Source: Pseudobdellovibrionaceae bacterium
Lineage (GTDB): Bacteria; Bdellovibrionota; Bdellovibrionia; Bdellovibrionales; Bdellovibrionaceae
Reading direction: 5' to 3'
Assembly: GCA_021731025.1 (NCBI GenBank)
Contig: JAKFYD010000015.1
Span: forward strand, 1-64,000
DNA: 64,000 nt
Shown here: in pieces, positions 3,293 to 61,666 of the stretch
Layout: every line of letters begins with the position of its first letter
Position numbering within the stretch: the stretch's first letter is position 1
Program-made: the position numbers and the translations under genes
The notes under the pieces: model-generated
Databases searched by the model: none
The model's input: the letters and a program-made list of their open reading frames with translations, nothing else
Told to the model about the DNA's origin: nothing

Positions 3293-4363
3293 ATGCCGAG
3301 CTCTCGTTATTTTTCATATTTATTTAAATCAATCTTTATGGCTGTGACTTTGCTTTATTTGACGGCTTGCAGTCATGCTGAGAAAAAAGAAATCATCACT
3401 GATCCTCCCTTAAATAATTTCAGCGAAAATATGCAAGTGGGGGAGATTACGACCAATACAAATTTAAAAATTAAAGGTGTTAATCTTCGACAAAAACTAT
3501 TCGTAAATGAAAAGCTGGCCTTGGTTTCAAAAGAAAAAGACATAGGAATTTATGGGGTGGGAGTTGTAAAGAAAATCATCTTCAGTGGAGACGGTCGTTT
3601 TGACTTTGAGTTCGAGATTTTGGCTCTGCAGCCAAAGTATACGGTTCGTTTGGGAGACCGGGTCGTTCGGCTTAATTTGAGCACGACCAATGAGGAATAC
3701 ATGGGGCGAACCTACAGTCTGGTTCATTTGCCTGACAGAAATGTGTCTTCACGATATAAACCTTTGTTTACCCAAGGTTATAGCATTGGGGAAACTGCAG
3801 AGACTTTATGGAAAAATGAATTCTTGTTTACATACTATGGGCAAATCTACTATGGGCTGTATGATTTTCTTTCTGTGGGAACTTTGTTGCCGCTGAACGC
3901 TGTTGGCTCTGCCAATGGTGTTGTTAAGGCTCGGTTGTATCGCTCGGGGGCCAACGTGCTTTCTACGGGTTTGAGCTACACCAAAATTCCTAACAGTCAG
4001 GCTTCAACTTTGAATATCAATTTCATGTGGGATTCAATTTCTAATGAAAGTTCGATCACTCACAGCTTTATCTCTTTGGCTGTTTTTTCTTTTGATAAGG
4101 CCGAGGATGCATCAGCCATCAAATCATTGGGAACTAGCAGTTTACAAACGGGCTACGAATTTATTTTGGATAATTGGAGTCGCCTTCTGGTCGGCCCAAA
4201 CTTTAATTTCGAGAAGAAGAGTGTGGGAGGATACCTTTCCTATTTGAAAATATGGGATAAAACTCATTTGCAGTTCAGTTTAAATTCGACAAATATCAGA
4301 TCGCTTAAATTGTCTCCCACCGATGGGTATTACGCTTTTTTTGATGCTTATTGGAGATACTAA
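3293..4363 (+). CDS. Outer-membrane-type lipoprotein of unknown function
   Basis: A 356-residue protein with a lipoprotein signal: a hydrophobic segment ending LTAC at Cys26. Residues about 55-145 form a beta-rich domain with GVGVV and RLGDRVVRL-like strands. The C-terminal 190 residues show alternating hydrophobic and polar residues and many Tyr, Ser and Asn, and end in YWRY, which suggests a beta-barrel or beta-sandwich. I recognise no named family. It follows the FliG-like gene by 59 nt on the same strand and may be co-transcribed. ATG 3293 lacks a clear ribosome binding site; the Met at residue 16 would also leave a signal sequence. Confidence 0.6.
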   Translation: MPSSRYFSYLFKSIFMAVTLLYLTACSHAEKKEIITDPPLNNFSENMQVGEITTNTNLKIKGVNLRQKLFVNEKLALVSKEKDIGIYGVGVVKKIIFSGDGRFDFEFEILALQPKYTVRLGDRVVRLNLSTTNEEYMGRTYSLVHLPDRNVSSRYKPLFTQGYSIGETAETLWKNEFLFTYYGQIYYGLYDFLSVGTLLPLNAVGSANGVVKARLYRSGANVLSTGLSYTKIPNSQASTLNINFMWDSISNESSITHSFISLAVFSFDKAEDASAIKSLGTSSLQTGYEFILDNWSRLLVGPNFNFEKKSVGGYLSYLKIWDKTHLQFSLNSTNIRSLKLSPTDGYYAFFDAYWRY

Positions 4364-4434
4364 CTTCTATCCCAAAGCCGTGTAAAATTTAGACTTTTAT
4401 TGACTATAAATTGATTCTCGAAGATTTTCATTTC

Positions 4435-6300
4435 ATGAAAAATCACAGCACCTTTTTAATCGTTTTATTGTTAATTCTTTCTTTTTCGGCATTATCTTGG
4501 GCTCAAAAGACCTCAATCCCAAAAACAAAAGCTTCATTTGAGATTTGCCAAGATAATCTTAAAACATTTTCTAAACTTATCGAAAATGAAAAGTTGAAAG
4601 CCATTTTGGATTTGCAGTGGAAGGGCTGGATGGCCGAACACCCCGAGTGGGCCACTTATGTGGGAGTTAATGGCTATAATCATTTATGGACAAATCGCAC
4701 TTTGCCGGCTCGGGAGGCGCGGAAGAAATTAGCACGTTGCCATCAAAAAGGTCTGCTGGGGATTCAGCGGGAAAAATTAAAAAGCGATGACCAACTCACT
4801 TTAGATTTAGCTCTTAAAAAAGTGAAAGAGGATATTGAAGGCGAAAAATTTCTTGGTGATTATTTGATCCTGGATCAAATGTCAGGTTTACACTCCGATT
4901 TACCTGATCTTCTTTTTGCTGCTCCAAAGGAAAAACAAAATGACTTTGCAGATCGAATTAAGCGCTTGCAGGCGGTGCCTCAACTTGTCGAGCAGCACAT
5001 TGGAGTTTTGCGAGAAGGTTTAAAACAAAAGGTGACCCCGGTAAAATTTTTAGTTGAAAAAGTTCCTCAGCAGGTCATGGATATAATGCCAGCGGCCATT
5101 GAGCAAAGTCCCATGTATAAAAGCTTTCTGGAAATGCCGACGAGCTGGCCTGCTGAATTTCGGGATGAAACTTTAAAACAGGCTCGAGATATTATTGAAA
5201 AAGAAGTCTATCCTTCCTTGCAAAAGTTTCAGCAATTTTTAGTGAAAGAATACATTCCGAAATGTCGTAAAGATATTTCGTGGTCAAATATGCCGAAAGG
5301 TGAAGAATGGTATGCCTTTCTAGCTCGGTCACATACAACGACAAAGATGAAACCTTCGGAAATTCATGGTCTGGGCTTGTCTGAAGTTCAACGAATCAAG
5401 AGTGAGATGGAAAAGGTGAGGGAGCAGGTTAAATTTAAAGGGAACACTCAAGACTTTCATGAGTTTTTGAGGACGTCACCGCAGTTCTTTTTCGAGAAAC
5501 CTAAGGATCTAATTTCAGCATATCGAGAAATAGGAAAAAGAATTGATCCCGAGTTGCCACGACTTTTTGGCCGACTGCCCCGGCTGCCCTATGGAATTCG
5601 CGAGATGCCGTCTTATAAGGCGCCTCAAGCTCCTACAGCCTATTACATCGGCGGCAGCGGGCCTGCTGGGCGAGCGGGTTATTTTGAAGCTAATACCTAT
5701 GATTTAAACTCGAGACCGAAATGGGAAATGGAAGTGCTTACTTTGCATGAGGCTGTTCCGGGACATCATTTGCAAATTTCGTTGGCTCAGGAAATGGGTG
5801 AATTGCCAGAGTTTAGAAAGTATGAAGGTTACAACGCTTTTACGGAAGGTTGGGGGCTGTATGCAGAAAGCTTGGGTGTGGAGTTAGGAATGTATACAGA
5901 CCCTTACTCGAAGTACGGGCAACTGAGCTACGAAATGTGGCGAGCCGTTCGATTGGTGGTCGATACGGGAATGCACACGAAGGGGTGGTCTAAAGACAAA
6001 GCTTTAGGCTATTTCATGGAGCATATTCCGAAAAGCCGCCTCCAAGCAGAAAACGAAATTGATCGTTATATCACTTGGCCGGGGCAAGCTCTCTCTTACA
6101 AAATAGGGCAGCTTAAATTTTTAGAATTGAAAAATAAAGCGCAGAAAGTATTAAAAGATAAATTCAGTGTTCGAGAGTTTCATGATGAGGTTCTTCGGCA
6201 TGGTGCTGTGCCGATGGATGTATTGGAAAAACTTTTTGAAGAATGGTTAACGCAGCAGAAACGTAAAGACGATCCTGCTACGCAAATTTCGCAATTTTAG
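4435..6300 (+). CDS. Exported DUF885 family zinc peptidase
   Basis: A 621-residue protein of the DUF885 family. The motif HEAVPGHH near residues 438-445 is the family's signature metal-binding site, followed by EGWGLYAE, where a further Glu can complete the site. A clear signal peptide (about 23 residues, ending SWAQ) shows export, so it would act in the periplasm or outside the cell. DUF885 proteins are carboxypeptidase-like metallopeptidases as a class; the substrate is unknown. I chose ATG 4435 because the signal peptide starts there, while a TTG 24 nt upstream has no better support. Its stop codon overlaps the converging gene's stop by 3 nt. Confidence 0.85.
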   Translation: MKNHSTFLIVLLLILSFSALSWAQKTSIPKTKASFEICQDNLKTFSKLIENEKLKAILDLQWKGWMAEHPEWATYVGVNGYNHLWTNRTLPAREARKKLARCHQKGLLGIQREKLKSDDQLTLDLALKKVKEDIEGEKFLGDYLILDQMSGLHSDLPDLLFAAPKEKQNDFADRIKRLQAVPQLVEQHIGVLREGLKQKVTPVKFLVEKVPQQVMDIMPAAIEQSPMYKSFLEMPTSWPAEFRDETLKQARDIIEKEVYPSLQKFQQFLVKEYIPKCRKDISWSNMPKGEEWYAFLARSHTTTKMKPSEIHGLGLSEVQRIKSEMEKVREQVKFKGNTQDFHEFLRTSPQFFFEKPKDLISAYREIGKRIDPELPRLFGRLPRLPYGIREMPSYKAPQAPTAYYIGGSGPAGRAGYFEANTYDLNSRPKWEMEVLTLHEAVPGHHLQISLAQEMGELPEFRKYEGYNAFTEGWGLYAESLGVELGMYTDPYSKYGQLSYEMWRAVRLVVDTGMHTKGWSKDKALGYFMEHIPKSRLQAENEIDRYITWPGQALSYKIGQLKFLELKNKAQKVLKDKFSVREFHDEVLRHGAVPMDVLEKLFEEWLTQQKRKDDPATQISQF

Positions 6301-53903: not shown

Positions 53904-56900
53904 TTATTTTTTAAATACTTTAATACAGCTGTTCGAGCCGTGATGGTTTGTGTAATTGATTCGCTGATTTTCTGGAACTTTAGTTCTTGCAAAACCATGA
54001 TTTAAGAAGAATGCATCCTTAGTCTTTTCATCTAATGTGTCGAATTCATCCTTAGCTGCCGCCATAATTCTCTTAGAGAATTCTTGAATGCCGCCTATAT
54101 CATACATTCCAGCAGTTTCTTCGGCGATTCGTTTCTCGCCAAGGGCAATAACGGCTGAATCAATAGGCTTATTGTTATATTGAGCGGTACCCAATACTTG
54201 TAAAGCGATATCAACACTTCCGTCGGAAAATTCTTTGTCGCGACCATGAAGGCGTTTCTGTACTTTTGACCGCAGTGATTTTATGAAACTAGCAACAGAA
54301 AGTTGTGGATCAGATTGAAAATCATAAAAAATTATCTTTTTTCCAGCTTTTTGAAACATTTCTATTTCCATACCTGTAATTTGCCCTCCAGCCATGGCAA
54401 CTAACTTATCGCTTATGGCGAGGAAAGTTTCTGTGGTGGTTGATCGTTGTCCTGTCTTTGGATCGTAACCGCCGTAAAGGTTGTCCTTAATGACAAAGAT
54501 CTCATCGGCGTATCGTGATTGGCTTGCTGGGTCTCCAGCCTTTTCAGAAACTGTGCCGATAGTCTGAAACCCCATTTTTTTAGCGACTTCATAAACATAG
54601 CCGATGCCAACGGAGCTGCCACCAGCGTTTATTATATATTTTTTTGAATCTAGCTGATTGAGTTCATGCACGATGGCATCATGAAAAGCTTGATGGTCCT
54701 TATATCCTTGGCGTGAAAAACCAGCAAAGGTAACAACTTTTTTATTGTAGGATGAAATGGCTTTGATTGCAGATTCCTTGTCAAGCCAGTGAAATTTTTG
54801 ACGATCTTTCCAGTTTTTAGACCCGTTGTGGGTTTTCATAGCTTCAGGAAGTTGAGATGAAATCATTTGTATGAGTTGATTAGAATCTGCGAAGCTTTTT
54901 TCTGGATACAATGATGTGGCATTATTGGCGGCTCCTGCTGGCCCTTTAGCAAGAGCAAATTTAACATTACTATTTCTTGCCGATTGGATTTCGTCGGCAA
55001 CGATTGCGCCTCCACTCCAATAAATAACTAGACCATTTTGATTCGCTACGAATTTAAGTGTCGTCGCTGATCTCTCAAACCACCAGGGAGCTGCGACGAT
55101 AGCGTCTGTTATAGGACCCAGTTCGTAGAGTGTTCCGCGATTTTCAGAAACCAATGTTCCTAGCATTTTAAACTGTGGTTTACCCTGTTTTTTCAGATCT
55201 TGATTATAACGTTCAATCTCTTGATGTACAATTTTTTCGACGCCATAGTCGGAGCCACCAGTGACGAAATAAACTTTAGCAGGATCTAATGCATGGATCA
55301 TTTCACGAATAGATTTTAAAATGGTTTCCCGATCACGTAAAGAAACTTGTTCATAGCTAAACATGGATGCGCCTGTAATAAGGATAGGCTTCATGCCAGG
55401 CACCGTGGGTAGGAAAGCTTCAAAGCTTTGATGAGCACGGTAGCCCATCGATTTTAAACGAGCCTCAATATTGATTTTCATCTGCTGCTTTCGGTTTTCT
55501 TCGATAGTCCAATCTGAATTCTTAAATTTGGCTTCAGGCAGGTTTGTGGGTATTAATAAATTTGGATTTTTTGCTAATCGAGATTTAAATTCGGTTTCTC
55601 GTCTATTTATATACTTCTTAGAAAATTGGTGAATGTCAGATAAGTCATTTTTTGTGGCACCAGCGTAAATAGCGCCGTACAATTGGGAAGCAGGAGTCTC
55701 TCCATATAACCCATGTCCGTCGGTTCCCAAAGTCACTGGAACTTTGTGAGCTAGATAATCACGGATTGGAATATCTTCAGCATTAACAGCATTATTTAAG
55801 GCTAGATTTGATCCAGTATTAATTTCAACAGAAGAACCTGTTTTGACTAATTCGTTAAGGGTTGCTTGATCAACTCCATATAATCCATGTCCAATTTGGT
55901 TTGAACCAAATTGAACTGCATTCTTAACGTTACTAGGGTAAAACAGATTCTCTCCGGCATGCACGCGAATGATTCCTTCTTTCAGGCCGGCCTCTTCCAA
56001 AATTAATTTAGCGTCACGGACTTCATTTTCGATGGCGTGAGAGGAATTGGTTTCATGTCCCATAAAATCAAACCCTACAATGTAAGGACTAGTTAAAAGC
56101 GCTTTGGTCCTGGCAAAAATATCTTGATTGAATAAAGTTGGAGAGTGTCTCCAGAGAGCAACTAGAAATCGAATTTTGACACCTAACTCTTGTTCCAATT
56201 TAGGTAAAATTTCGTGTGCCTCCCCTAACCAATCGGGCCAGGAAACGTCCGAAAGTGATAGGAGGGCATACTCAACTCCATTTTGTTTATAGTCAATAGC
56301 CAGTGATCTTAAGTATTCTTGGAATGCAGGTCTGAATTTCACGAGAGGTCCCCGAAATTTATACGATACTTCCATTCTTTCCAAGCTAACAACTTCAGTC
56401 TTTGGCAGGTCCATAACATCAATTAATTTTTTTAAACCATCTTCAGAAATATTTTCGTGAGTTATGGGAATAGCTTTTTGATTTTTATACTGATCAGGAT
56501 AAGAAATTTTTAGTTCATCAAGTAAAGCGGTCGGGTAAGGAATTGAAAAATTAAATGCTATTCTCATGATTTCCTCGGACCTTAAAGCGCCTCCAAAGTG
56601 AGTGTGCAGATCCACTGGAGAACGGTACTTCTTAATTTCTTGTTTTGAAAGTGTAGGCGCCATTTTTTGTGCATATGCAGGCCCACTTTTACCTAGCATT
56701 CGAATATCAAAGCTTGTTAGTTTTCCAGAAGGAAGCCATTTAATGTTGCCCGATTGAAGAAATACTATTCTTCCTACATGCCTCTGGAAAATATAGACAT
56801 CTATAGGAGTGTTTGATTTTTTTAAGAAAATACTTTTATTAATGATTTTTTTTTGGATTTGAACTTGCTGCTGAGTAAATAATAAGCCGGAAAAAATAGA

Positions 56901-57089
56901 TTGAGTTGCTTTAACATTACCCGTCCAGTTTTTTTGATCTTTATCAATGATATTAATTTCAATTTCGTCATTTTCAATTTCAATTTTTAATTCATATTTG
57001 GAAATTTCATCAATAGATGTATTTATAGTATTTGCATATAGAAATCCAATTTTGGTAAATGCGAAAAAAAGGAGAAAAAAATGTTTCAT
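53904..57089 (-). CDS. Exported adenosine deaminase-like and double SLOG-like fusion
   Basis: A 1061-residue protein with a signal peptide ending YAN. Residues about 20-150 are beta-rich and unassigned. Residues about 155-510 form an adenosine/AMP deaminase-like barrel: HTH at 162-164, HAGE at 377-380, GHG with His401, and TDG at 456-458. Two Rossmann-like parts follow, about 565-730 (VTGGSDYG, WSGGAIVADE) and 775-930 (NAGGSSVGIG, MAGGQITGME), both of the SLOG/LOG type that binds nucleotides. ADA's second Asp is Gly458. The likely job is purine nucleoside or nucleotide breakdown outside the cytoplasm; the exact reaction is unknown. AGGTG precedes the ATG. Confidence 0.72.
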   Translation of the reverse strand: MKHFFLLFFAFTKIGFLYANTINTSIDEISKYELKIEIENDEIEINIIDKDQKNWTGNVKATQSIFSGLLFTQQQVQIQKKIINKSIFLKKSNTPIDVYIFQRHVGRIVFLQSGNIKWLPSGKLTSFDIRMLGKSGPAYAQKMAPTLSKQEIKKYRSPVDLHTHFGGALRSEEIMRIAFNFSIPYPTALLDELKISYPDQYKNQKAIPITHENISEDGLKKLIDVMDLPKTEVVSLERMEVSYKFRGPLVKFRPAFQEYLRSLAIDYKQNGVEYALLSLSDVSWPDWLGEAHEILPKLEQELGVKIRFLVALWRHSPTLFNQDIFARTKALLTSPYIVGFDFMGHETNSSHAIENEVRDAKLILEEAGLKEGIIRVHAGENLFYPSNVKNAVQFGSNQIGHGLYGVDQATLNELVKTGSSVEINTGSNLALNNAVNAEDIPIRDYLAHKVPVTLGTDGHGLYGETPASQLYGAIYAGATKNDLSDIHQFSKKYINRRETEFKSRLAKNPNLLIPTNLPEAKFKNSDWTIEENRKQQMKINIEARLKSMGYRAHQSFEAFLPTVPGMKPILITGASMFSYEQVSLRDRETILKSIREMIHALDPAKVYFVTGGSDYGVEKIVHQEIERYNQDLKKQGKPQFKMLGTLVSENRGTLYELGPITDAIVAAPWWFERSATTLKFVANQNGLVIYWSGGAIVADEIQSARNSNVKFALAKGPAGAANNATSLYPEKSFADSNQLIQMISSQLPEAMKTHNGSKNWKDRQKFHWLDKESAIKAISSYNKKVVTFAGFSRQGYKDHQAFHDAIVHELNQLDSKKYIINAGGSSVGIGYVYEVAKKMGFQTIGTVSEKAGDPASQSRYADEIFVIKDNLYGGYDPKTGQRSTTTETFLAISDKLVAMAGGQITGMEIEMFQKAGKKIIFYDFQSDPQLSVASFIKSLRSKVQKRLHGRDKEFSDGSVDIALQVLGTAQYNNKPIDSAVIALGEKRIAEETAGMYDIGGIQEFSKRIMAAAKDEFDTLDEKTKDAFFLNHGFARTKVPENQRINYTNHHGSNSCIKVFKK

Positions 57090-57162: not shown

Positions 57163-57186
57163 AAAGTCTGTTACAAGGATTTGATT

Positions 57187-59601
57187 ATGCAGAATTTAGT
57201 AAAACTATTGCTCCGTCAGTTACCGAGGACTTTGCTTCTTGGAAGTGTGCTTTTTGGTGGGCCGTTTTATTCATATGCACAAAATAGCTGTAAAGATGTT
57301 TTTGATTTTGCTAAAAATAAAAAAATCGAAAGATTGAACACAGTTCCTGAGGTCCCACGGAGTAGTACTGATAGTTGGGACAAAACTATCGGCGAATTTT
57401 GGTTCGCAACTGTCAAAAAACTAGGCACTCCAAGAACCGGAGTAATCGTAGAAATTGGGCCTGGTGGCCGGGGTAAAGTTGGATATGGGCTTAGTAAATA
57501 TAATTTTGAGGGCATTCTTTATGTCATCGAACTTGATTCGCAAGCACTTCAACAAACTTTATCCATATACAAAACTCTCATGCCTCATGCTGAAATTATC
57601 GGTATTTCAAAACCATTTCAGTTAGCTACGGGCGAAATTAAACAAAGACCTGATGCAATTTTAGCCAATCATTTACTTGATGATTTAATCACCTACGAAG
57701 CGTCGTCAGAAGAAATGCGCAGCCGTATTTTTACTAATTGCTATACGACCTGTAGTCTTAACGCCGCTAAGGAACTTTGGTCTCAACTTAAAAAAACTCC
57801 ATCGCAAATTGAAGATGCTCGAGCAAAAGTCAAACGTGATTTTTTAGATTTTGTGCAAGTAACTGGAGCGCAACACGTTGGGCTGAGCCAATATGACAGT
57901 AAAACTTTTAAAGATCATGGGTTGGTTGATCCGGATCAGCACGCTCAAATATTATTAAAAGAAATTTCTTCATATTTATCGAGTAAATTTGACTTAAGTC
58001 ATTTAACTGAGATTAAAACAATTGGGCTACAGCCAACCACATGGTTGCTGGCTAAGCGTAAGTATATTCCTGAGAATCTTGCCGAGGCAGCTGCCCTACG
58101 AACTAAGGAAGACTCAGAAAGTCGCCTTTACATCGAAATTCAAGGCATTCGTGTTCCAAGGAAATCTGCAAATTCTAAATGGCGTGCGGTTTTTGTGAGA
58201 GAGAATGAGGATCAAATCAGTGAAGATGGTTATAAATCTGGCTGGGTTCGTTTCGGTAATAAAATCAGTGAATGGCTTAAATCCAAATACCGTGACGCTA
58301 AAGGCAGCATAGATTATCGATTTTCCGATGGCAGACAAGTTAAGGTTTCTGCAAAAGTGGCTCGAGCTCTTGAATTCTCGTATTTAGATTCGTTAAATCC
58401 ATACAGTCCAAAGAACAGTATTGTTATTGGTATTCATGATGACCTACCGACCATTATCGAAATGGTTCGACAATCCCAAGCTGAAAAACTTGGTCAGCCA
58501 GGTGGTTATTTTCGAATTGATGAGATTTCAACAGAAGGATTAGAAATAACAAGTTCTGAAGACTTGTATAAAGAGTATGGTCTAAAGAGTCGCGTTTATT
58601 CTCCAAAAGGAGAATGGGTTGTCGACTCGTCAATTCCTGCTGAAAACATCATTTCGACTTTAAAATTTAAACAATTATACGGAAAGACCTCATTGCAAGA
58701 GCTCGCTACAAAAAAACCGGAATATCAATTCAAAGTCGGTGAAGAGGTTTACTACCAAGCAATGAACGGTGAGAAATACGTCGGCGTCGTTGCCAGGGAT
58801 TATATTATTGACGGTTTTTTAATTGTCACTTACCACAATCGCTATGGGCAACTCAGTTATGATCTTGGTCATGTGCAATATGCTAAAAAATCTACTAAAA
58901 TAAATAAGAATTTACCTTTTGATTTTAATTTATCTGCCATTCATCACGAGCTTAATCGTAATCCTGAAAGCCTCGTGCCTTTATTAGAGCTTTTGTCGAG
59001 TGATCCAGATATTGGATTTTTAATTAAGAGCAGTTCTGGAACAGCTAAAAGAGAATCCATTGGTACTCATTCCGCAAAAGTTTATTCTACTTTCAAAGAA
59101 TTTGAAGATAGAAATCCTATTTTACGCTCTTTCAAAACTAAGGGTGGCCTTACACTTTCTAAGTTTTTAGCAATGGTTATAGCTGTTCATGATATTGGTA
59201 AGTCAATAGCAGGAGCACACGCTGGAATTGAAAAACAAAAGGAATACAATACTCCATTGGCGCTGAGAATTCTTTCACAACTATCTATGCAGAAGTCAGA
59301 TCTTGAGCTCGCGAAAGCAATTATTGATCATGATGATTTCGGTCGTCTTTTCAATGCGCGAACACCTCAAGATCAAAAACTCAAGCCTGATCAGCTTATT
59401 GAAATCATCAGCCGTCGTGCGACTGAATTAAGAATTTCACCACGTCTGCTTTATGCACTGAATCTTGTTTTTTATTTAGCAGATGCCGGTTCGTACGACG
59501 TCGTCAGGAATAATTACTTTCATATTGACTCTAGCAATCGGCTAGTCCCAAAGAACCCAGACTTCGAAATTCTGGAAAAAATTGCAGCTAAGTTACCTTA
59601 A
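57187..59601 (+). CDS. Exported SAM-methyltransferase-like, SH3-like and HD domain fusion
   Basis: An 804-residue protein. A signal peptide ends near SYA (about residue 31). Residues about 80-300 have the class I methyltransferase pattern: VEIGPGGRGKVG (motif I) and acidic VIELDSQ after it. A middle part (about 320-500) is unassigned. KVGEEVYYQ to HVQYAKK (about 520-575) looks like an SH3-like barrel. The C-terminal HD domain has His628, HDIGK (His668-Asp669), His715 and Asp766. No SAM is expected in the periplasm, so the methyltransferase part may be a structural or substrate-binding relic, or act after secretion. AAGGA lies 7 nt before ATG. Confidence 0.68.
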   Translation: MQNLVKLLLRQLPRTLLLGSVLFGGPFYSYAQNSCKDVFDFAKNKKIERLNTVPEVPRSSTDSWDKTIGEFWFATVKKLGTPRTGVIVEIGPGGRGKVGYGLSKYNFEGILYVIELDSQALQQTLSIYKTLMPHAEIIGISKPFQLATGEIKQRPDAILANHLLDDLITYEASSEEMRSRIFTNCYTTCSLNAAKELWSQLKKTPSQIEDARAKVKRDFLDFVQVTGAQHVGLSQYDSKTFKDHGLVDPDQHAQILLKEISSYLSSKFDLSHLTEIKTIGLQPTTWLLAKRKYIPENLAEAAALRTKEDSESRLYIEIQGIRVPRKSANSKWRAVFVRENEDQISEDGYKSGWVRFGNKISEWLKSKYRDAKGSIDYRFSDGRQVKVSAKVARALEFSYLDSLNPYSPKNSIVIGIHDDLPTIIEMVRQSQAEKLGQPGGYFRIDEISTEGLEITSSEDLYKEYGLKSRVYSPKGEWVVDSSIPAENIISTLKFKQLYGKTSLQELATKKPEYQFKVGEEVYYQAMNGEKYVGVVARDYIIDGFLIVTYHNRYGQLSYDLGHVQYAKKSTKINKNLPFDFNLSAIHHELNRNPESLVPLLELLSSDPDIGFLIKSSSGTAKRESIGTHSAKVYSTFKEFEDRNPILRSFKTKGGLTLSKFLAMVIAVHDIGKSIAGAHAGIEKQKEYNTPLALRILSQLSMQKSDLELAKAIIDHDDFGRLFNARTPQDQKLKPDQLIEIISRRATELRISPRLLYALNLVFYLADAGSYDVVRNNYFHIDSSNRLVPKNPDFEILEKIAAKLP

Positions 59602-59632: not shown

Positions 59633-60193
59633 ATGAAAAAATTGATTTTAGTAGTCTTAATAACTTTTTCAACCTCTGCTCACGCGGTGACAGTTATTTT
59701 TGATATTGATTGGACTCTACTTTATAGAGATCAAGTAAGCCAACAAGCAATCGAATCTGATAGTATTTTGGTTCATGATAAGGATGTGTATCGCATTTCA
59801 GATTACGCAGTTCAGGTCATCGAATTGCTTTTACGGCGAGGTGTAAATGTTCAGTTTTTTAGTGGTGGTAACGCTGATAGAAATGAGTATTTTATTCGAG
59901 TACTCAATGAAAAAATCAATCGTATTGCCAAAGAGCCTAGAGTTTTACCGCAGGCTTTTAGTAAAGAGTCCTTAACCGAAGTCCTAGGTCCCGCATCAGG
60001 ACTGGATTTCTTTGATCGCACTAAAAAAAATTTACTAACCGTAGTTTCTCCCGCCGAGCTTGAAAATACAGTAATTATTGATGATGACAGAAAGTTTCGA
60101 TTTGACAGTCAGCGAGAACATTGGATTCATTTAACTACTTATCAAGATTTTTTAGAATATCCGTCGGCAACCTCACCTCTTCCGATGATTTAA
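59633..60193 (+). CDS. Exported HAD-like phosphatase
   Basis: A 186-residue protein with a signal peptide (about 18 residues, ending AHA). FDIDWTLLY at residues 23-31 is HAD motif I (Asp24, Asp26), FFSGGN is motif II and VIIDDDRKF is motif IV. It follows the methyltransferase-HD gene by 31 nt with AGAGGAAA before the ATG. The exported HAD and HD enzymes could act in series on a phosphate ester. The frame ends soon after motif IV; the sequence after it continues in another frame (see the next entry). Confidence 0.75.
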   Translation: MKKLILVVLITFSTSAHAVTVIFDIDWTLLYRDQVSQQAIESDSILVHDKDVYRISDYAVQVIELLLRRGVNVQFFSGGNADRNEYFIRVLNEKINRIAKEPRVLPQAFSKESLTEVLGPASGLDFFDRTKKNLLTVVSPAELENTVIIDDDRKFRFDSQREHWIHLTTYQDFLEYPSATSPLPMI

Positions 60194-60532: not shown

Positions 60533-61666
60533 TTACCCAATTCCTGGCAATGGCCTAAAAAAATCCTTCAAGCCGTCAACTTGCATCGGTGTTTTATCAA
60601 AACTCTGAATCCAAGTCTCTGGAGTTTCCATGCACAAGAAAATATTCCAACGAGGATCATTCGACAAAAATTCCTTGCGAACAAATTGAAACATCTCGTG
60701 GCGAAGACTAGCGTCATAGCGAAGTTTGCTGCCCTCCGATGGAAACATTTCGGCTGAGGTCACCAGGCTGCGTAAACCAAATCGCTCGCGCATCAGGTGA
60801 CGTTGCTCGGGTTGGAACCGCAAGGTTCCCAATGAGATGACGTTCACTTGTTCAACAGAAAATCGTGACGTCAATTCGCGCACTAGGCCCGAATAACTTT
60901 CTTTCCATTCGGGATGCCAAATCATGGGATCAATATGGAAGGCTAAGGAAAATCCCGCTGTCGCACACTTTTCAGCAGCTGCCAAGCGTTCATGAAAGCG
61001 AGCTGTGCCGTGCTCTTCAGAATTAATAACCAAAGGAGGATTGATGGACCAGCTAGTAACAACATTCTTTGCGGGAGCTAAATCCAAAAACTGATCGACA
61101 CGATCTGATTTCGTTTTAAATTCCAAAGTCCAACGAGGATATTTTCTGAAAAAAGAAATGAGCTCACGTGAATACAAAGTGAGCTCATCCAAACTGAGAC
61201 TATCGATGACTTCGCCGGTGCCTACACGGTAGGGAAGGTCAGCGTGCTTAACAGCCATTTCATCAAGCTCCTGCAGAGCCTGATCAATGTTAGTGTAAAT
61301 CTTCATGATCGGGGAATTTAGGTAACTTTGCAGATAACAATAGCTGCAATTCATATTGCATTGGCTTCCTAAATTCAGAACATAATAGTTACAGCAGGTC
61401 AGGGTTTTTTTCTGAGTTGCTCCAGGGCAGCGTTTGAAAAACTGTCCCGCAAATGGTGTTAAGAAAAGATTTTTTTTGCTGCGATCGAATTGCGAGGCGC
61501 TGAGCTCGCCACGATGATCAGTCCAAGGCTGTTCGTCCACCACTTTAATTTTTTCAGGTGGGAAATACTTTATCACCCGTTTAGCAGCGGAAGAGTCCAC
61601 CGACTTCTCATCGATAAAAACTTTTTCGAAATGATCGACTATTGTTCCTGGGACAGGGATTTCCAC
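60533..61666 (-). CDS. Radical SAM protein, spore photoproduct lyase-like
   Basis: A 377-residue protein. CNMNCSYCYLQ gives the CxxxCxxC cluster ligands (Cys103, Cys107, Cys110), and YVLNLGSQ and YLQSYLNSP fit the spore photoproduct lyase family. A further Cys pair lies near residue 91. GTG start with GAAGA ahead. True Spl repairs UV damage in spores; outside spore formers the role is unknown. It overlaps the upstream gene by 28 nt and both may work together. Confidence 0.82.
   Translation of the reverse strand: MEIPVPGTIVDHFEKVFIDEKSVDSSAAKRVIKYFPPEKIKVVDEQPWTDHRGELSASQFDRSKKNLFLTPFAGQFFKRCPGATQKKTLTCCNYYVLNLGSQCNMNCSYCYLQSYLNSPIMKIYTNIDQALQELDEMAVKHADLPYRVGTGEVIDSLSLDELTLYSRELISFFRKYPRWTLEFKTKSDRVDQFLDLAPAKNVVTSWSINPPLVINSEEHGTARFHERLAAAEKCATAGFSLAFHIDPMIWHPEWKESYSGLVRELTSRFSVEQVNVISLGTLRFQPEQRHLMRERFGLRSLVTSAEMFPSEGSKLRYDASLRHEMFQFVRKEFLSNDPRWNIFLCMETPETWIQSFDKTPMQVDGLKDFFRPLPGIG

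Follow-up and report, generated by a model that had tools for sequence, protein, structure and literature searches.

A single open reading frame in the window, a 64,000-nt stretch of DNA from a Pseudobdellovibrionaceae bacterium, encodes an adenosine deaminase (ADA)-like barrel followed by two SLOG-like domains. What compound might such a protein act on, and what might the SLOG domains contribute? An earlier note on this DNA had read it as an exported enzyme that processes purine nucleotides in two steps, deamination and then release of the base by a LOG-type reaction. We examined the domains, conserved residues, relatives and genomic partners of this protein with that reading in mind.

A probably exported protein of three recognizable domains

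The gene is present in single copy in its source genome; its features are collected in Table 1. The N-terminus of the product (MKHFFLLFFAFTKIGFLYA/NT) resembles a signal peptide and, judging from its sequence, the protein probably carries one and is exported. This part of the earlier reading stands as probable; a simple hydrophobicity scan gave the segment a weak score, owing to the lysine at position 13. Signal peptides are clear in L031 and L032, both relatives from Bdellovibrionota. When the N-terminal sequences of most other family members were inspected, no signal peptide was evident.

The divergently oriented neighbor (57181-59601, + strand) encodes 806 residues with a signal-peptide-like start. 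By eye, the N-terminal part of its product is methyltransferase-like and the C-terminal part HD-like, and no Pfam family scores above cut-off. Beyond it, a small, probably exported HAD-type phosphatase-like protein with a weak NIF match is encoded at 59633-60193 (+ strand). Neither gene has relatives at the homologous loci. The window also encodes a spore photoproduct lyase-like radical SAM protein (60533-61666, - strand, PF20903, E = 7.8e-33), here in a Bdellovibrionota genome.

Table 1. Positions of the ADA-SLOG1-SLOG2 gene, its parts and motifs in the window, with PGDYG-like neighbors at homologous loci
Feature	Residues	Position	Strand	Basis
ADA-SLOG1-SLOG2 open reading frame	1061 aa	53904..57089	-	ATG start, zero internal stops
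Probable signal peptide, MKHFFLLFFAFTKIGFLYA	1-19	57033..57089	-	Sequence; clearer counterparts in two Bdellovibrionota relatives
Adenosine-deaminase-type barrel	~146-520	55530..56654	-	PF00962, E = 6.8e-18
HTH, metal ligands	162-164	56598..56606	-	Both His invariant in 28/28
HAGE, metal His and catalytic Glu	377-380	55950..55961	-	His, Glu invariant in 28/28
GHG, catalytic His	400-402	55884..55892	-	His invariant in 28/28
TDG, metal Asp, then family-wide Gly for the canonical second Asp	456-458	55716..55724	-	Asp, Gly invariant in 28/28
SLOG1, TRPM MHR1/2-like	~565-750	54840..55397	-	AlphaFold2 pLDDT 93; Foldseek TRPM, E = 2.5e-8
SLOG1 motif GGSDYGVE	611-618
SLOG1 motif SGGAIVADE	692-700
SLOG2	~770-935	54285..54782	-	AlphaFold2 pLDDT 84; Foldseek TRPM/LOG; hhalign to SLOG1
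SLOG2 motif AGGSSVGIG	822-830
SLOG2 motif AGGQITGME	900-908
C-terminal tail	936-1061	53907..54284	-	No family recognized in Pfam search
PGDYG-like neighbor		L046:7160-7693
PGDYG-like neighbor		L047:4849-5493
PGDYG-like neighbor		L049:7141-7644

The deaminase barrel has an altered substrate-facing motif

The ADA-like barrel is confirmed by a match of the window protein to PF00962 at 65.3 bits (E = 6.8e-18, cut-off 27), and the family profile matches solved ADAs with E values of 1e-16 to 3.2e-20. The score against the NCBIfam equivalog TIGR01430 (57.6 bits) lies below its cut-off of 216.55. The deaminase motifs HTH, HAGE, GHG and TDG follow one another in the order originally described, and the residues H162, H164, H377, E380, H401 and D457 are invariant in all 28 aligned members of the family.

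Position 458, however, is a glycine in every one of these members, giving a [T/S]DG signature where [T/S]DD is retained in 19 of 19 other ADAs checked from the window's phylum. In ADA structures the second aspartate of [T/S]DD contacts the purine N7, and with a glycine in its place the substrate may differ from adenosine; Gly458 may indicate that the substrate contains no normal adenine. Adenosine, the substrate first assumed, need therefore not be the one used. G344 and E380, whose counterparts in ADA face N3 and N1 of adenine, are likewise invariant in the alignment. The source genome also encodes a separate canonical ADA (E = 2.2e-71). A second Bdellovibrionota group of ADAs (L010-L019), mostly about 480-630 aa long, carries the motif TDDE.

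In a tree of the ADA domain, the 28 members form one clade against the 19 other ADAs (SH-aLRT 100), joined by branches that the program warns are long. The Bdellovibrionota members cluster together within it (88), beside a clade whose members bear a NUDIX domain (90).

Both SLOG domains resemble the nucleotide-binding region of TRPM channels

SLOG1 and SLOG2 were modeled separately by AlphaFold2 with family alignments, because fragments consisting of a single SLOG2 slid onto SLOG1 when aligned to the full protein; the models are of single domains and carry no mutual orientation of the two. Compared with the PDB using Foldseek, the SLOG1 model (pLDDT 93, pTM 0.91) most closely matches TRPM8, TRPM5 and TRPM2 (E = 2.5e-8 to 3.5e-7), including TRPM2 with ADP-ribose. 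The best sequence-profile matches of SLOG1 are also to TRPM2, at marginal E values of 0.017 and 0.034, and it is the fold match that carries the likeness. For SLOG2, the fold search was used because searching its profile against the sequences of solved structures returned nothing meaningful; the model (pLDDT 84, pTM 0.83) matches TRPM8, TRPM2 and LOG (E = 2.5e-5 to 7e-5), with TRPM first. The SLOG1 and SLOG2 profiles are homologous to each other (hhalign 97.7%, E = 1.7e-12).

The window protein does not score above cut-off for PF18171 or PF18139, and the homologous SLOG1 of L036 passes PF18171 (LSDAT_prok; 27.0 bits, cut-off 25.4, E = 3.2e-6). Across the family, SLOG1 conserves glycines, an aspartate and a GPxGAS segment. 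In these models, both domains have the SLOG Rossmann-like fold. The earlier note had placed two SLOG-like domains after the barrel and named a structure prediction without the SLOG fold as an outcome that would speak against it; that outcome did not occur.

Might these domains then be LOG phosphoribohydrolases, releasing the base after the barrel of an exported two-step enzyme has deaminated adenosine or AMP? SLOG2 also matches LOG structures and keeps the T and E of the LOG motif (GGQITGME), but a search at E ≤ 1 gave no hit to the Pfam LOG family for either domain, and PGGxGTxxE is preserved neither in SLOG1 (SGGAIVADE) nor in SLOG2 (AGGQITGME), PGGxGT being lost from both. At the position of the catalytic glutamate, moreover, SLOG1 often has Met or Ile across the family, and its nearest folds are TRPM rather than LOG. 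With the motif and the family match missing, a LOG-type reaction is unlikely, and we regard the two-step pathway as improbable. Since SLOG1 finds its nearest structures in the MHR1/2 domains with which TRPM channels bind ADP-ribose, binding or sensing is likelier than base release. In TRPM2, both MHR1/2 and NUDT9-H bind ADP-ribose (PMC6759353).

ADA-SLOG proteins are rare but widely scattered

When the ADA-SLOG1 alignment was run against 84,980 species genomes, it returned 35 loci in at least eight phyla. These include Clostridia, Bacilli, Saccharibacteria, Alphaproteobacteria, Rhodoferax and Archangium, as well as Planctomycetota, Acidobacteria, Actinomycetota, Verrucomicrobia and Melainabacteria. 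ADA and SLOG1 lie within one open reading frame at nearly all of them, with a few contigs ending before SLOG1. Within the window's own phylum (369 genomes), two other proteins combine ADA with at least part of SLOG1 (G069 and G340, both counted again among the 35 loci), and several SLOG proteins occur without ADA.

The family is rare and patchy. It was found in 1 of 199 other genomes of a Clostridia order and 10 of 194 other Myxococcota, in none of 141 other genomes of a gut Alphaproteobacteria order, and in none of 300 other Comamonadaceae. Plasmid and phage collections yielded two partial plasmid matches and no phage match, and no relative was found in viral contigs. Six Myxococcota loci that we compared have no common neighbor beyond the ADA-SLOG gene itself.

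The domain order had been singled out as unusual. The ADA-SLOG fusion recurs in many phyla, as the 35 loci show, but the exported form with two SLOG domains was seen in Bdellovibrionota alone, most family members being cytosolic. We found no description of the fusion in the open-access literature, a scope outside which the main 2015 SLOG survey falls; the family is apparently undescribed.

Partner domains and neighboring genes suggest a possible link to NAD metabolism

Seven scanned members, from a cytosolic sister clade, carry a C-terminal NUDIX domain with an intact Nudix box and a GRDPRDTxxxW motif. Its profile matches the structures of NrtR (E ~1e-11), the TRPM2 chanzyme (2.4e-8), NMNAT/NUDIX (1.9e-7) and a NUDT9-type ADP-ribose pyrophosphatase (2.7e-6), and all seven NUDIX members match the ADPR-responsive NtrR model. 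At five of five Rhodoferax loci, which represent one genus and count as one observation, pncB-nadE-nadM lies divergent to the ADA-SLOG gene; one of these (L061) additionally has NrtR and an isochorismatase.

In Bdellovibrionota, SLOG2 accompanies ADA-SLOG1 in all three members, C-terminally in the window protein, N-terminally in L031 and in a nearby lipoprotein gene in L032. In a further Bdellovibrionota frame near a contig edge (L034:1-1957), a NadD-like adenylyltransferase is flanked by the C-terminal half of SLOG1 on one side and by SLOG2 on the other; the start of this frame looks broken. In L031, the SLOG2-ADA-SLOG1 frame (3437-5947) breaks off in the middle of SLOG1, close to where the contig ends.

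SLOG2 also occurs by itself, in proteins whose signal sequences are lipobox-like (L032:9937-10605 and L038:2374-3066). Exported Bdellovibrionota proteins also contain an uncharacterized domain with an HDxNHxRRM motif (L033:3922-7494, L037:5336-8935, L035:4261-6291, L032:11761-13725), which is fused to SLOG1 and SLOG2 or to SLOG2, or, in L032, belongs to a protein whose gene immediately precedes ADA-SLOG1. The N-terminal domain of L035, a second SLOG partner in other Bdellovibrionota, has no counterpart in the window genome.

In gut bacteria, ADA-SLOG repeatedly occurs with a PGDYG-like module (PF14083, best E = 1e-5). It adjoins the gene in L046, L047, L049 and L054; as a fusion partner it stands at the C-terminus in L057 and L059 and at the N-terminus in L054. 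A literature search found no paper on this module.

A candidate deaminase of NAD-derived nucleotides

The domains, conserved residues, family and partner domains described above were computed; from them we infer a substrate, a ligand, allostery and a biological role. We favor an NAD- or ADP-ribose-derived nucleotide as the ligand and probable substrate class, because the family joins relatives of both TRPM2 modules to a deaminase, and because, in two lineages, these modules are found together with genes or enzymes of NAD metabolism. At roughly even odds, we suggest, the protein is a metal-dependent deaminase of such a nucleotide, gated or fed by its SLOG domains and exported in Bdellovibrionota. 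The ADA-type barrel would hydrolyze the exocyclic amine of an NAD-derived adenine nucleotide (ADP-ribose, AMP or a relative), while SLOG1 and SLOG2 would bind ADP-ribose or a derivative and thereby switch the barrel on or deliver the substrate. The cytosolic relatives carry, within one polypeptide, an ADP-ribose pyrophosphatase-like NUDIX domain as well. NUDIX is absent from the Bdellovibrionota branch, which would have gained SLOG2 and become exported, and so would act on extracellular or prey-derived products of NAD breakdown. Weighing against this reading are the glycine at position 458, an NAD-gene neighborhood confined to one genus, the marginal sequence-level likeness of SLOG1 to TRPM2 and the PGDYG-like partners of other members.

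More tentatively, and with somewhat less confidence, the two ADP-ribose modules of TRPM2 (SLOG and NUDT9-type NUDIX) may regulate, or supply substrate to, a novel class of ADA-fold deaminases whose target is ADP-ribose or some other NAD-derived compound. This would be an unrecognized branch of NAD/ADP-ribose metabolism, with its enzyme exported in Bdellovibrionota. If so, both ligand-binding modules of TRPM2 would be found together in a bacterial enzyme, a tractable system for their channel-free roles, and NAD/ADP-ribose turnover would gain a deaminase branch, secreted in a phylum that includes predators. With TDG invariant, members can be recognized easily, and what they act on is a directly testable question.

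Two alternatives, each unlikely, survive best. The protein could be an immune effector that depletes nucleotides when gated by a ligand, in the manner of Cad1 from CRISPR systems (CARF-ADA, ATP to ITP), with SLOG replacing CARF as the sensor of a second messenger. Cad1 exemplifies a sensor-effector logic (PMC11645235) that is, by analogy, possible for ADA-SLOG; in Thoeris, cADPR variants are the signals that SLOG domains detect (PMC9503650), the distribution is patchy, and among PADLOC models CARF_ADA scores best against the ADA part (E = 1.5e-14). However, that match begins at model position 261, within the ADA part, which alone matches Cad1, and ordinary ADAs are the better match to the family profile (E = 3e-20 versus 1e-10). 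No defence genes were recognized among the neighbors looked at, and an exported form is ill-suited to intracellular defence.

A similarly doubtful alternative is that the target of the barrel is not adenine but another amine, or an amide, of NAD metabolism, as in the deamidation of a nicotinamide moiety. Such a substrate would fit the invariant loss of the N7-contacting aspartate and the nearby pncB and nadE, whose products work on nicotinate forms, but the N3- and N1-facing Gly and Glu are kept, and we know of no ADA-family deamidase that acts on nicotinamide-type amides. Still less probable is a plain exported nucleoside-scavenging deaminase of a predator-like bacterium, with SLOGs as structural or oligomerization modules, which would suit the probable export, the ADA fold and the Bdellovibrionota membership but sits poorly with the retention of SLOG1 and its conserved residues in nearly all members, the family-specific TDG motif and the canonical ADA in the same genome.

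Comparison with known systems

The proposed SLOG-linked deaminase of NAD-derived nucleotides has parts in common with several known proteins. With ADAs such as those of mouse and human, the family shares the barrel, HxH, HAGE, GHG and the metal-binding aspartate; it differs from ADA (PF00962) in its [T/S]DG, its fusion to SLOG and its separate clade. Cad1 likewise pairs a Rossmann-type nucleotide-sensor domain with an ADA barrel, but the window protein has no CARF match, its SLOG domains follow the barrel rather than precede it, and no CRISPR genes were recognized among the listed neighbors of ADA-SLOG genes. The cytokinin phosphoribohydrolase LOG has the SLOG fold in common with the window domains, which are without its catalytic motif and its family match. 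NrtR and the NadM/ADP-ribose pyrophosphatase NUDIX proteins are related to the NUDIX domain of the sister clade, and in Rhodoferax the gene lies beside nadM, whereas the window protein is without NUDIX. Unlike TRPM2, the family is bacterial, has a fused deaminase and no channel, and its window member again lacks NUDIX; yet SLOG1 has the fold of TRPM2 MHR1/2 (an LSDAT SLOG), and its relatives add the same kind of NUDIX partner as NUDT9-H.
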